Assembly (NCBI RefSeq): GCF_001013905.1
Contig: NZ_LN831790.1
Location: forward strand, 5,408,001-5,472,000
Source of the DNA: Streptomyces leeuwenhoekii
Lineage (GTDB): Bacteria; Actinomycetota; Actinomycetes; Streptomycetales; Streptomycetaceae
DNA length: 64,000 nucleotides
Reading direction: 5' to 3'
This document shows, one piece after another, positions 43,672 through 47,741 of this stretch. The notes beneath the pieces are model-generated. The model worked only from the letters and a program-made list of their open reading frames with translations. It was not told where the DNA came from and searched no databases. The position numbers and the translations under genes were made by a program. Every line of letters starts with the position of its first letter. The first letter of the stretch is position 1.

Positions 43672-45624
43672 ATGCCTGCCGAAGCCGCCGAGTCTGTGTT
43701 CCCGCAGCTCGAAGCTCTGCTCCCGCATGTGCAGAAGCCGATCCAGTACGTCGGCGGAGAGCTCAACTCCACGGTCAAGGACTGGGACTCCTGCGACGTC
43801 CGCTGGGCGCTGATGTACCCCGACGCCTACGAGGTCGGACTGCCCAACCAGGGCGTGATGATCCTCTACGAGGTCCTCAACGAGCAGGAGGGCGTCCTCG
43901 CCGAACGCACCTACAGCGTGTGGCCGGACCTGGAGGCCCTGATGCGGGAGCACGGCGTCCCGCAGTTCACGGTGGACAGCCACCGGCCGGTGCGCGCGTT
44001 CGACGTGTTCGGCCTGTCGTTCTCCACCGAGCTGGGGTACACGAACATGCTGGCCGCCCTGGAGCTGGCCGGCATCCCGCTGGAGGCCCGGGACCGGGGG
44101 CTGGACGACCCGATCGTGATGGCCGGCGGGCACGCCGCGTTCAACCCCGAGCCGATCGCCGACTTCATCGACTGCGCGATCATCGGCGACGGCGAGCAGG
44201 CCGTGCTGGAGGTCACCGCGCTCATCCGCGCCTGGAAGGCGGAGGGCCGCCCCGGCGGCCGCGAGGAGCTGCTGCTGCGCCTGGCGAAGACCGGCGGGGT
44301 CTACGTCCCCGGCTTCTACGACGTCGAATACCTGCCGGACGGCCGTATCGCCCGAGTCGTGCCCAACCGGTCGGGCGTGCCGTGGCGGGTGTCCAAGCAC
44401 ACGGTGATGGACCTCGACGAGTGGCCCTACCCCAAGCAGCCGCTGGTGCCGCTGGCGGAGACGGTCCACGAGCGGATGTCGGTGGAGATCTTCCGCGGCT
44501 GCACCCGCGGCTGCCGCTTCTGCCAGGCCGGCATGATCACCCGCCCGGTGCGCGAGCGGTCCATCACCGGCATCGGCGAGATGGTCGAGAAGGGGCTGAA
44601 CGCGACCGGCTTCGAGGAGGTCGGCCTGCTCTCGCTCTCCAGCGCCGACCACTCCGAGATCGGTGACATCGCCAAGGGCCTGGCGGACCGCTACGCGGAC
44701 GACAAGATCGGCCTGTCGCTGCCGTCGACCCGCGTGGACGCCTTCAACATCGACCTGGCCAACGAGCTGACCAGGAACGGCCGCCGCTCCGGCCTCACCT
44801 TCGCCCCCGAGGGCGGCAGCGAGCGCATCCGCAAGGTCATCAACAAGATGGTCTCCGAGGAAGACCTCATCCGCACGGTCGCCACGGCCTACGGGAACGG
44901 CTGGCGGCAGGTGAAGCTGTACTTCATGTGCGGCCTGCCGACCGAGACCGACGAGGACGTCCTGCAGATCGCCGACATGGCCACCCGCGTGATCCAGAAG
45001 GGCCGCGAGGTGTCGGGTTCGAACGACATCCGCTGCACCGTCTCCATCGGCGGTTTCGTCCCCAAGCCCCACACCCCCTTCCAGTGGGCGCCGCAGCTCT
45101 CGGCCGAGGAGACCGACGCCCGGCTGGCCAAGCTGCGCGACAAGATCCGCGGTGACAAGAAGTACGGCCGTTCCATCGGCTTCCGGTACCACGACGGCAA
45201 GCCCGGCATCGTCGAGGGACTGCTGTCGCGCGGCGACCGCCGTATCGGCGCGGTCATCCGGGCCGTGTACGAGGACGGCGGCCGCTTCGACGGCTGGCGC
45301 GAGCACTTCTCGTACGACCGCTGGATGAGCTGCGCGGAGAAGGCGCTGGCGCCGTTCGGCGTGGACGTCGACTGGTACACCACCCGTGAGCGCGGCTACG
45401 AGGAGGTCCTGCCCTGGGACCACCTCGACTCCGGCCTCGACAAGGACTGGCTCTGGGAGGACTGGCAGGACGCCCTCGACGAGACCGAGGTCGAGGACTG
45501 CCGCTGGACACCGTGCTTCGACTGCGGGGTCTGCCCGCAGATGGACACCCACATCCAGATCGGCCCCACGGGCAAGAAGCTGCTGCCGCTGACGGTCAAG
45601 AACGCGGCGCCCAGCGCCGGCTGA
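43672..45624 (+). CDS. B12-binding-type radical SAM protein (TIGR03960-like)
   Basis: A 650-residue protein. The N-terminal part (about 40-200) resembles a cobalamin-binding Rossmann domain (ALMYPDAYEVGLPNQGVMIL; DDPIVMAGGHAAFNPEPIAD). The radical SAM core holds Cys277, Cys281 and Cys284 in FRGCTRGCRFCQAG, ligating a 4Fe-4S cluster. The C-terminus adds a Cys-rich patch (CRWTPCFDCGVCPQ), perhaps a second cluster or metal site. This matches the TIGR03960 family, which is genetically linked or fused to a DUF2344/TIGR03936 domain; such a protein is encoded at 46965-47741. Reaction and substrate unknown. Tandem rne is consistent with RNA modification, but that is speculation. Confidence 0.9.
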   Translation: MPAEAAESVFPQLEALLPHVQKPIQYVGGELNSTVKDWDSCDVRWALMYPDAYEVGLPNQGVMILYEVLNEQEGVLAERTYSVWPDLEALMREHGVPQFTVDSHRPVRAFDVFGLSFSTELGYTNMLAALELAGIPLEARDRGLDDPIVMAGGHAAFNPEPIADFIDCAIIGDGEQAVLEVTALIRAWKAEGRPGGREELLLRLAKTGGVYVPGFYDVEYLPDGRIARVVPNRSGVPWRVSKHTVMDLDEWPYPKQPLVPLAETVHERMSVEIFRGCTRGCRFCQAGMITRPVRERSITGIGEMVEKGLNATGFEEVGLLSLSSADHSEIGDIAKGLADRYADDKIGLSLPSTRVDAFNIDLANELTRNGRRSGLTFAPEGGSERIRKVINKMVSEEDLIRTVATAYGNGWRQVKLYFMCGLPTETDEDVLQIADMATRVIQKGREVSGSNDIRCTVSIGGFVPKPHTPFQWAPQLSAEETDARLAKLRDKIRGDKKYGRSIGFRYHDGKPGIVEGLLSRGDRRIGAVIRAVYEDGGRFDGWREHFSYDRWMSCAEKALAPFGVDVDWYTTRERGYEEVLPWDHLDSGLDKDWLWEDWQDALDETEVEDCRWTPCFDCGVCPQMDTHIQIGPTGKKLLPLTVKNAAPSAG

Positions 45625-45640
45625 GGCCGGTCGCGTCGGG

Positions 45641-45686
45641 CACGTCGTACGCCCCGTCCGGGTTCCGGCCCGGGCGGGGCGACGTG
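45641..45686 (+). terminator. Terminator after the radical SAM gene
   Basis: CACGTCG/CGACGTG outer and GCCCCG/CGGGGC inner complementary segments form an imperfect hairpin (45641-45686) starting 17 nt after the stop. Confidence 0.5.
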
Positions 45687-45786
45687 TGTTCGAGGGGTGG
45701 TGAGGGGGCGGGGGGTCTGCCGGGCGGCCGGGAGTGGCTGTCGTACGGGGTGCATCCGGACGGGGCGCGGGTGCGTCTACACCGGT

Positions 45787-46422
45787 ATGGAACTGCAGAA
45801 ACAGCCCTCGGAGAGCCCCGCGCCGTCCGATGTGCCCGCACATCCGGTGCACGGTGAGCGGCAGCCGGCGCAGGGCGAGGGGTGTCTCGTCATCGCCATC
45901 CGCATCCCGGTGCGGCTCGTGACGCTGATGCTGGTCGTGCCGGTGCGGATGATGTGGGACGTGCTGGTCGTCGGGGCGCGGTTCCTGAACGGCACGGTGC
46001 TGCGGCCGGCCGGGCGGGCCCTGCTCTGGCTGGGGCGCGCGGTCTTCGTGTGGCCCTTCGTGGGGCTGTGGCGGTACGTCGTCGTGCCCGTGGCGAAGGG
46101 GCTGGCCTGGCTGGGGAAGGTCTGTGTCGTCGTCCCGGCGGCCTGGGTGTACCGGTGGCTGCTGACGCCGGTCGGGCACGGGTTCGGGTGGGTGTACAGG
46201 CGGGTCCTCACTCCGGTCGGGCACGCGGTGCTGTGGGTGCTGCGGGGCGTGGGCGCGGGGATCGTCTTCGTCGTGGGCGCCGTGTACCACGTGCTGGCCG
46301 TGCTCGCGCGGTACCTGGTGGCCGTCCCCGCGCTGTGGCTGTACCGGTGGGTGCTGACGCCCCTCGGACACGCTCTCGCCTGGTGCGGCCGGGGTCTGGC
46401 GTGTGTGCGCGGATGGCCGTGA
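45787..46422 (+). pseudogene. Membrane repeat protein, 5' part (apparently frameshifted)
   Basis: A 211-residue open frame from the ATG at 45787. After a polar 35-residue start it consists of amphipathic/hydrophobic repeats of the type YRW(L/V)LTPVGHA: AWVYRWLLTPVGHGFGWVYR, RVLTPVGHAVLWVLRGVG and LYRWVLTPLGHALAW. The frame ends abruptly (CVRGWP stop) while the same repeat pattern continues in the overlapping -1 frame to 46916. Removing one GT from GTGTGTG at about 46401-46407 joins the two frames, which suggests a dinucleotide-expansion frameshift or a sequencing error. Two coupled genes remain possible. Function unknown. Confidence 0.65.
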
Positions 46423-46916
46423 CCGGTGTCGGCACCGCGCTGTACTGGACCGGCCGGGTGCTGTTCGTGCTGCCCGCCCTCGGTGTCTGGCGGTGGGTTC
46501 TGGTGCCCGTCGGGCGGGTGCTCGCCGTCGTCGGGGCGGAGGTGTGGGCGGCGCTCGGGCACGCCTGGCGGGTGGCGGGGCACATCTCGCTCGCCGTCGG
46601 GAGGGCCCTGGGCAGGCTTCTGCGGCTGGTCCTCGTGGAGCCGGTGCGGTGGGTGTACCGCACGGTGCTGACGCCCGTCGGGCACGCCGTGCGGGACACG
46701 GTGCTCAGGCCCGCCGCCGAGGCGGCCCGCGGGGCCGGCCGGGCCGTGCGGCAGGCGGTCGGCACCGCCCGGGCGGCGGCGCGGCAGGCGCGCGCCGATG
46801 TGCGGCGGATGCTGTTCGGGGAGCGGGTGCCGGCCCGGGGCGTGGACCGGCGGGAACCTTCGGGCACCGAGGGACGTACTCTTGGTAGCAGTACGACCGC
46901 TCTCACGAAGGACTGA
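46413..46916 (+). pseudogene. Membrane repeat protein, 3' part (second frame)
   Basis: 167 residues from the ATG at 46413, overlapping the upstream frame by 10 nt. It continues the same pattern: TALYWTGRVLFVLPALGVWR, WVLVPVGRVLAVVG and VYRTVLTPVGHAVRDTVLRP. The last 55 residues are Ala/Arg-rich (AARGAGRAVRQAVGTARAAA) and cytosolic-looking. No good ribosome site precedes the ATG, favouring a broken single gene of about 375 residues. It lies between a radical SAM gene and its DUF2344 partner. Confidence 0.6.
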
Positions 46917-46964
46917 ACGACACTGGGCAAGCGACAGCCCGAAGGCCCGCCGCCGGTACCCGCG

Positions 46965-47741
46965 GTGCAGCGCATCCGTCTGCGGTACACCAAACGCGGC
47001 CGCCTCCGGTTCACCAGCCACCGTGACTTCCAGCGTGCCTTCGAGCGTGCGCTGCGCCGTGCCGAGGTGCCGATGGCGTACTCGGCGGGGTTCACGCCGC
47101 ACCCGAAGGTGTCGTACGCCAATGCCGCACCCACCGGCACGGGCAGCGAGGCGGAGTACCTGGAGATCGCGCTCACCGAGCCGCGCGACCCCGAGCAGCT
47201 GAGAGCCCTCCTCGACGAGTCGCTGCCCGCCGGGCTCGATGTCGTCGAGGCGGTCGAGGCCCGGACCTCCGGGCTCGCCGACCGGCTGACGGCCTCCGTG
47301 TGGGAGCTGCGGCTGGACGGGGTGGAGCCCGCGGAGGCCGCGCGCGCCGTGGAGGCGTTCAACGCGGCCGGGGCCGTGGAGGTCCAGCGCCTCACCAAGA
47401 ACGGCGTCCGCACCTTCGACGCCCGCCCGGCCGTCGCGAGTCTGGAGAGCGTGGAAACGCACGGTTCGCCGGCTGATAGGCCGAGCGACCGGCCCTGTGC
47501 GATACTGCGGCTGGTTGTTCGGCACGTGACGCCTGCCGTACGACCCGACGACGTCCTGTCCGGTCTCCGCGCCGTGGCCGACCTGGCGCCGCCGGTCCCC
47601 GCAGCGGTGACCAGGCTGGCGCAGGGGCTGTTCGATGAAGAGACCGGCACGGTGACCGACCCGCTCGCGCCCGACCGCGAGGCAGCAGCGAACGAGCCCC
47701 AGACGGCCGACGCGACTGCCGCCGCGAAGGCGCCGGCGTAA
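46965..47741 (+). CDS. DUF2344 / TIGR03936 radical-SAM-linked protein
   Basis: A 258-residue protein beginning [20 protein letters not shown], the family signature (R-L-R-Y-x-K-x-G-x-x-R-F-x-S-H-x-D). Further conserved parts: [20 protein letters not shown] and [13 protein letters not shown]. The family is encoded beside, or fused to, TIGR03960 radical SAM proteins. The GTG at 46965 starts at the conserved core; coding continues upstream in frame for 14 codons to a CTG at 46923 (LGKRQPEGPPPVPA), which could be a rare start. The Ala-rich C-terminus is poorly conserved. It lies directly before rne. Confidence 0.88.

Follow-up and report, generated by a model that had tools for sequence, protein, structure and literature searches.

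A radical SAM-DUF2344 gene pair upstream of rne in Streptomyces leeuwenhoekii as a possible two-part cobalamin-dependent RNA methyltransferase

What is the function of a B12-type radical S-adenosylmethionine (SAM) protein and a DUF2344 protein that are encoded together near the gene for RNase E? The question is raised by a 64,000-nt stretch of contig NZ_LN831790.1 of Streptomyces leeuwenhoekii (the whole of which is called the window below), where a radical SAM protein of 650 residues is encoded at 43672..45624 and a DUF2344 protein of 258 residues at 46965..47741, both on the plus strand. The radical SAM open reading frame (ORF) scores 709 bits against the NCBIfam profile TIGR03960 (cut-off 462.3); the DUF2344 ORF scores 184 bits against TIGR03936 (cut-off 71.9) and 172.8 against PF10105 (cut-off 23.8). 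A first-pass annotation had recognized both protein types, including an extra C-terminal Cys cluster in the radical SAM protein, and had proposed that they belong to an undescribed system. The recognition was correct, the Cys motif being readable in the sequence. "Undescribed" holds for the function, which no paper among the open-access titles and abstracts listed was found to assign (most subscription journals lying outside the search), and not for the families, which carry NCBIfam names; judged by profile scores, the two window proteins are plain members of these. We propose, with about an even chance of being right, that the pair forms a C-methyltransferase in two parts, a cobalamin-dependent radical SAM enzyme and DUF2344, of which the latter presents RNA (rRNA or tRNA) in a ribosome-maturation setting.

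Co-occurrence was measured in 149 evenly sampled Actinomycetota genomes, presence being a score over the curated cut-off. TIGR03960 was found in 77 genomes and TIGR03936 in exactly these 77; neither occurred alone in any. In 64 of them the two genes are no more than 300 bp apart on one strand; the distance is up to 1.5 kb in three, up to 5 kb in two and up to 20 kb in three, and the remaining genomes have the genes on different contigs (four) or on opposite strands (one). Gaps exceeding 1 kb number seven, all within the window genome's own class; the widest, about 13.9 kb, is seen in one Streptomyces (L061, G128:C1:6266000-6285900).

A profile scan of named genomes was restricted to the best 80 of 590 loci, so that the make-up of this set is uninformative on distribution. 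The set is mainly composed of Bacillota, with several Deltaproteobacteria (Desulfuromonadales included), one Atribacteria and one Dehalococcoides metagenome-assembled genome. At the 79 loci with a parsed radical SAM ORF, DUF2344 is adjacent in 67 and fused to it in eight, as single chains of 824-872 residues; three loci run into a contig end and one shows no DUF2344 (L093). The fused form occurs in Geobacteraceae, for instance (L104). Locus L108 was placed among the three contig ends since its ORF leaves the contig, though the start of DUF2344 lies in the same frame; L094, with DUF2344 present and the radical SAM ORF unparsed, was omitted from these counts. Carriers of the pair belong to several phyla (Streptomyces, Clostridia, Geobacter relatives and, among control genomes, Synechococcus and Thermotoga). 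Within the 14 control genomes PF10105 matched Synechococcus elongatus and Thermotoga maritima only, and TIGR03960 matched seven, two of them over the cut-off.

Two genomes holding sub-threshold pieces of TIGR03960 were inspected. In one of them (G147) the contig stops within the radical SAM gene, for which reason no loss was scored. The other (G091) retains about 79 N-terminal residues of the radical SAM protein between rodA and rne (L183, G091:C18:33000-43000, about 4024-5343, minus strand); the remainder of the gene and all of DUF2344 have disappeared, and MreB, MreC, MreD, PBP2, RodA, RNase E, L21 and L27 are all retained. The radical SAM gene and DUF2344 were lost together in this genome. 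Altogether, the two proteins form one unit.

The Radical_SAM_N2 profile PF19864 covers residues 61-213 of the window radical SAM protein (185.3 against a cut-off of 29), placing a Rossmann-like domain of the B12-binding type at 43852..44310 (plus strand), and PF04055 (Radical_SAM) covers residues 271-436. The Pfam B12-binding profile PF02310 reaches 20.7, under its cut-off of 32.1. Aligned relatives share a conserved stretch of the GGP/GGH...N(P)EP...G(D/E)GE type in the N-terminal domain, and the CxxxCxxC motif for the radical SAM [4Fe-4S] cluster (C277/C281/C284; 44500..44523, plus strand) is invariant in all 16 aligned relatives. A well conserved Cys was sought in the N-terminal domain of 16 aligned TIGR03960 proteins and none was found, the best column having Cys in 5/16; a column just before the barrel motif has it in 6/16. 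Methylthiotransferases (MiaB, RimO, MtaB) carry three conserved Cys in their N-terminal domain. As no such conserved trio was found in the 16 relatives, identity as a methylthiotransferase is disfavoured; moreover, with no well conserved Cys in it, the N-terminal domain of TIGR03960 is not expected to hold an auxiliary cluster.

Folds were compared using a naturally fused relative, whose radical SAM part shares 45% identity with the window protein. In the predicted structure this part is closest to MgmA, with CysS next and the methylthiotransferases, TsrM and OxsB behind (alignment values: MtaB 18.1, MiaB 18.0, AprD4 17.4, RimO 17.2, TsrM 17.1, OxsB 16.8). The N-terminal B12-type domain of the fused relative likewise aligns with MgmA. 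This cobalamin-dependent radical SAM enzyme C-methylates a glutamine of methyl-coenzyme M reductase (PMC11796369). The CxxxCxxC motif, the PF04055 match and the superposition of the fused relative's barrel on that of MgmA are as expected for a cobalamin-dependent radical SAM methyltransferase. The N-terminal Rossmann B12-binding domain is recognized by fold only, in the fused relative, and cobalamin-free related folds match it too. By sequence profile, RimO entries rank second and third. The alignment rows of MiaB and RimO extend to model residue 685-699, as if DUF2344 overlaid TRAM; this overlay was not relied on since the rows give ranges only, and those of TokK and of one CysS entry likewise run to 659-660.

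The structure predicted for DUF2344 (predicted local distance difference test, pLDDT, 89.3) is a full-length pseudouridine-synthase fold of the TruA type. In TruA-class enzymes the catalytic Asp sits in a GRTD-type motif. No Asp was found at DUF2344 residues 40-61, the segment that leads up to and includes the part aligned with TruA's AGVHA, in any of 47 aligned sequences (L035 was unparsed in this count, as were 4/28 TruA loci in the loop comparison). DUF2344 is thus predicted to be a pseudouridine-synthase-like protein that lacks the catalytic Asp. This modelled fold and the mechanism put forward below would be what is new here, beyond the function-free NCBIfam labels.

We envisage the following mechanism. 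The TIGR03960 protein would be a cobalamin-dependent radical SAM enzyme of the class B type, its N-terminal Rossmann domain holding cobalamin and its barrel holding the [4Fe-4S] cluster and SAM; the methyl group would most likely be moved to an unreactive carbon. DUF2344, its catalytic Asp lost, would bind RNA and offer it to the active site of the radical SAM protein. The substrate would most likely be rRNA (or tRNA) encountered in ribosome maturation, given the recurrent position of the pair beside rne/rng, rplU, rpmA and obg. "RNA modification", one of the interpretations offered in the first-pass annotation, gains support from the TruA-like fold of DUF2344 and from the resemblance of the radical SAM part to a cobalamin-dependent methyltransferase; taken as a whole, the interpretations of that annotation are partly supported. 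More tentative is the complete form of the proposal, namely that a cobalamin-dependent radical SAM enzyme for RNA uses a dead pseudouridine synthase as its RNA-recognition subunit and that in several phyla, while ribosomes mature, the two attach a methyl (or related) group to a carbon of rRNA. To our knowledge, a cobalamin-dependent radical SAM enzyme acting on RNA in this way would be the first of its kind, nor has a dead pseudouridine-synthase fold previously been described in partnership with a B12-type radical SAM enzyme.

The pair sits in a recurrent gene frame, flanked at one end by mreBCD-pbp2-rodA and at the opposite end by genes related to the ribosome. In the window, rne (RNase E/G family; TIGR00757, 512 bits) lies downstream at 48016..52527, followed by two ORFs and then by rplU (L21), rpmA (L27) and obg at 54505..56868, all on the plus strand; the latter three were recognized by BLAST to self-labelled neighbour families and, for L21, by PF00829, the last coordinate being the end of the obg ORF. 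Among the 64 pair-bearing Actinomycetota genomes that have an RNase E/G gene, 61 have it on the same contig within 5 kb downstream and the other three have it on separate contigs. It is also downstream in 51 of the 60 loci, within the best 80 of 590, that have at least 3.5 kb of sequence on that side. The pair had been suggested to be tied to RNase E; its position bears this out, whereas dependence does not. No RNase E/G match at an E-value of 0.001 was found in 13 of the 77 pair-bearing genomes. In two of these (G048 and G054) the pair lies at the end of a contig, where an assembly gap is possible; two others (G027 and G142) are single-contig. RNase E/G is present in 64 and absent from 13 genomes with the pair, as against 60 and 12 without it, that is, an odds ratio of 0.98 and no co-occurrence. 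A survey of co-occurrence with rne/rng, which the first-pass annotation had advised, therefore confirms linkage and yields no correlation in presence. On these figures an obligate link to RNase E is rejected. When eight of the genomes lacking an RNase E/G match were examined, L21-L27-Obg followed the pair in five, and in the other three (L047, L050, L051) the sequence beside the pair yielded no L21. RNase E is one neighbour among several, frequent downstream but not an obligate partner, and not the key one.

These data bear on the alternatives. That the pair regulates RNase E or acts as its cofactor could explain why RNase E/G lies downstream of it within 5 kb in 61/64 genomes with both and downstream in 51/60 named loci, but the 13 genomes without a match, the odds ratio of 0.98 and the five genomes in which L21-L27-Obg come after the pair make this very improbable. 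Even less credence is given to the idea that DUF2344 is an active, divergent pseudouridine synthase linked to the radical SAM protein by nothing more than a common operon: the full-length TruA-like fold would be as expected, but the want of an Asp at residues 40-61 in 47 sequences speaks against it, as does the fact that the two proteins occur together and are in some cases fused.

Two further alternatives concern the chemistry and the substrate. The radical SAM enzyme AprD4 has a B12-type domain that is not known to bind cobalamin. By analogy, the B12-type domain of TIGR03960 might be devoid of cobalamin and the enzyme might perform another reaction on RNA (oxidation, dehydration or methylthiolation). 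The sub-threshold score of the window protein against the Pfam B12-binding profile, the ranks of RimO by sequence profile and the alignment values of MtaB, MiaB, AprD4 and RimO, equal to or slightly above those of TsrM and OxsB, all fit this possibility, which we hold to be unlikely. Genome markers are of no help here. PF02607 is found in 56/77 pair-bearing and 52/72 other Actinomycetota genomes; in the genomes lacking PF02607, the only ones searched for cobalamin riboswitches, these are found in 20/21 and 17/20, respectively. One marker or the other is thus present in 76/77 genomes with the pair and in 69/72 of the others, and the markers do not discriminate. Alternatively, the pair could be a protein-modifying cobalamin radical SAM enzyme, C-methylating for example L21, L27, Obg or RNase E/G, with DUF2344 as a peptide- or ribosome-binding adaptor. 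MgmA, the nearest solved relative, does methylate a protein (glutamine; PMC11796369), and genes for candidate protein substrates adjoin the pair, but the fold family of DUF2344 is an RNA-modification fold. We consider a protein substrate quite unlikely, and RNase E/G in particular is an unlikely one because no match to it was found in 13 of the 77 genomes that carry the pair.

The C-terminal Cys motif of the radical SAM protein, CRWTPCFDCGVC (C610/C615/C618/C621), is encoded at 45499..45534 (plus strand). Its first three Cys (C-x2-6-C-x2-C) are present in all 76 parsed named-genome loci within the best 80 of 590, and the position of the fourth varies. An actinobacterial family (f9) that retains both genes of the pair was found to lack these Cys in each of its eight parsed genomes (L026-L028, L169, L171-L174; two more genomes were fetched and left unparsed). 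A role as an essential catalytic cluster is disfavoured by this absence. We read the motif as a putative structural metal site near the junction with DUF2344, not as part of the essential chemistry.

A membrane repeat gene (45787-46916) separates the pair in the window. The order of genes is as first annotated, the pair flanking this gene and preceding rne, but the repeat gene is not intact: its first half lies in ORF A (45787..46422, plus strand) and its second half in another frame in ORF B (46413..46916, plus strand), as seen from the ORF list and from comparisons with relatives. The switch of frame occurs around 46398-46422. In all ten parsed Streptomyces relatives (11 were fetched) both parts are in a single frame. 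A match to the first half was found in 42/61 genomes of the genus, the only group searched, the window's own included. The gene varies across the genus and is broken here by a true frameshift or an assembly error. In the 77 Actinomycetota and 61 genus genomes, no membrane protein with conserved linkage to the pair was found, either inside it or alongside; the other membrane-related neighbours are RodA and the mre genes, upstream. The suggestion of a membrane-associated modification is rejected, since the intervening gene is both variable and broken and nothing separates the pair in 64/77 Actinomycetota genomes. We do not judge the repeat gene to be part of the radical SAM-DUF2344 system.

Between rne and rplU, the window contains a 1.75 kb segment (52644-54398) with an NTP transferase gene and an iron-alcohol-dehydrogenase gene. 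The same genome has another copy of this segment near 1.315 Mb (DNA identity 90%). Its first gene, for the NTP transferase, shows 99% protein identity between the two copies, as against 90% for the DNA. In G174, also a Streptomyces, this first gene is present in the same place as a broken copy; G155 showed no such match there.

If the proposed two-part RNA methyltransferase is correct, a conserved gene pair of several phyla becomes a testable RNA-modification enzyme, in which B12 chemistry is joined to RNA modification and a pseudouridine-synthase fold is re-used as a substrate-binding subunit. It would also predict an unassigned modified nucleoside, missing from Streptomyces or cyanobacterial deletion strains.

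Known systems resemble the pair in part. MgmA (PDB 9ccb) is the nearest solved relative of the radical SAM part, with 20% identity in the structural alignment; it differs in being archaeal, in acting on a protein and in its shorter chain (450 residues), which has no DUF2344 part. MiaB, RimO and MtaB are set apart by the Cys of their N-terminal domain, not well conserved in TIGR03960, and by the addition of DUF2344 to the latter as an extra domain. Finally, the pseudouridine synthases TruA, PUS1, PUS3 and PUS10 share the predicted fold of DUF2344, but their catalytic Asp has no counterpart in the 47 DUF2344 sequences, and DUF2344 accompanies a radical SAM enzyme.

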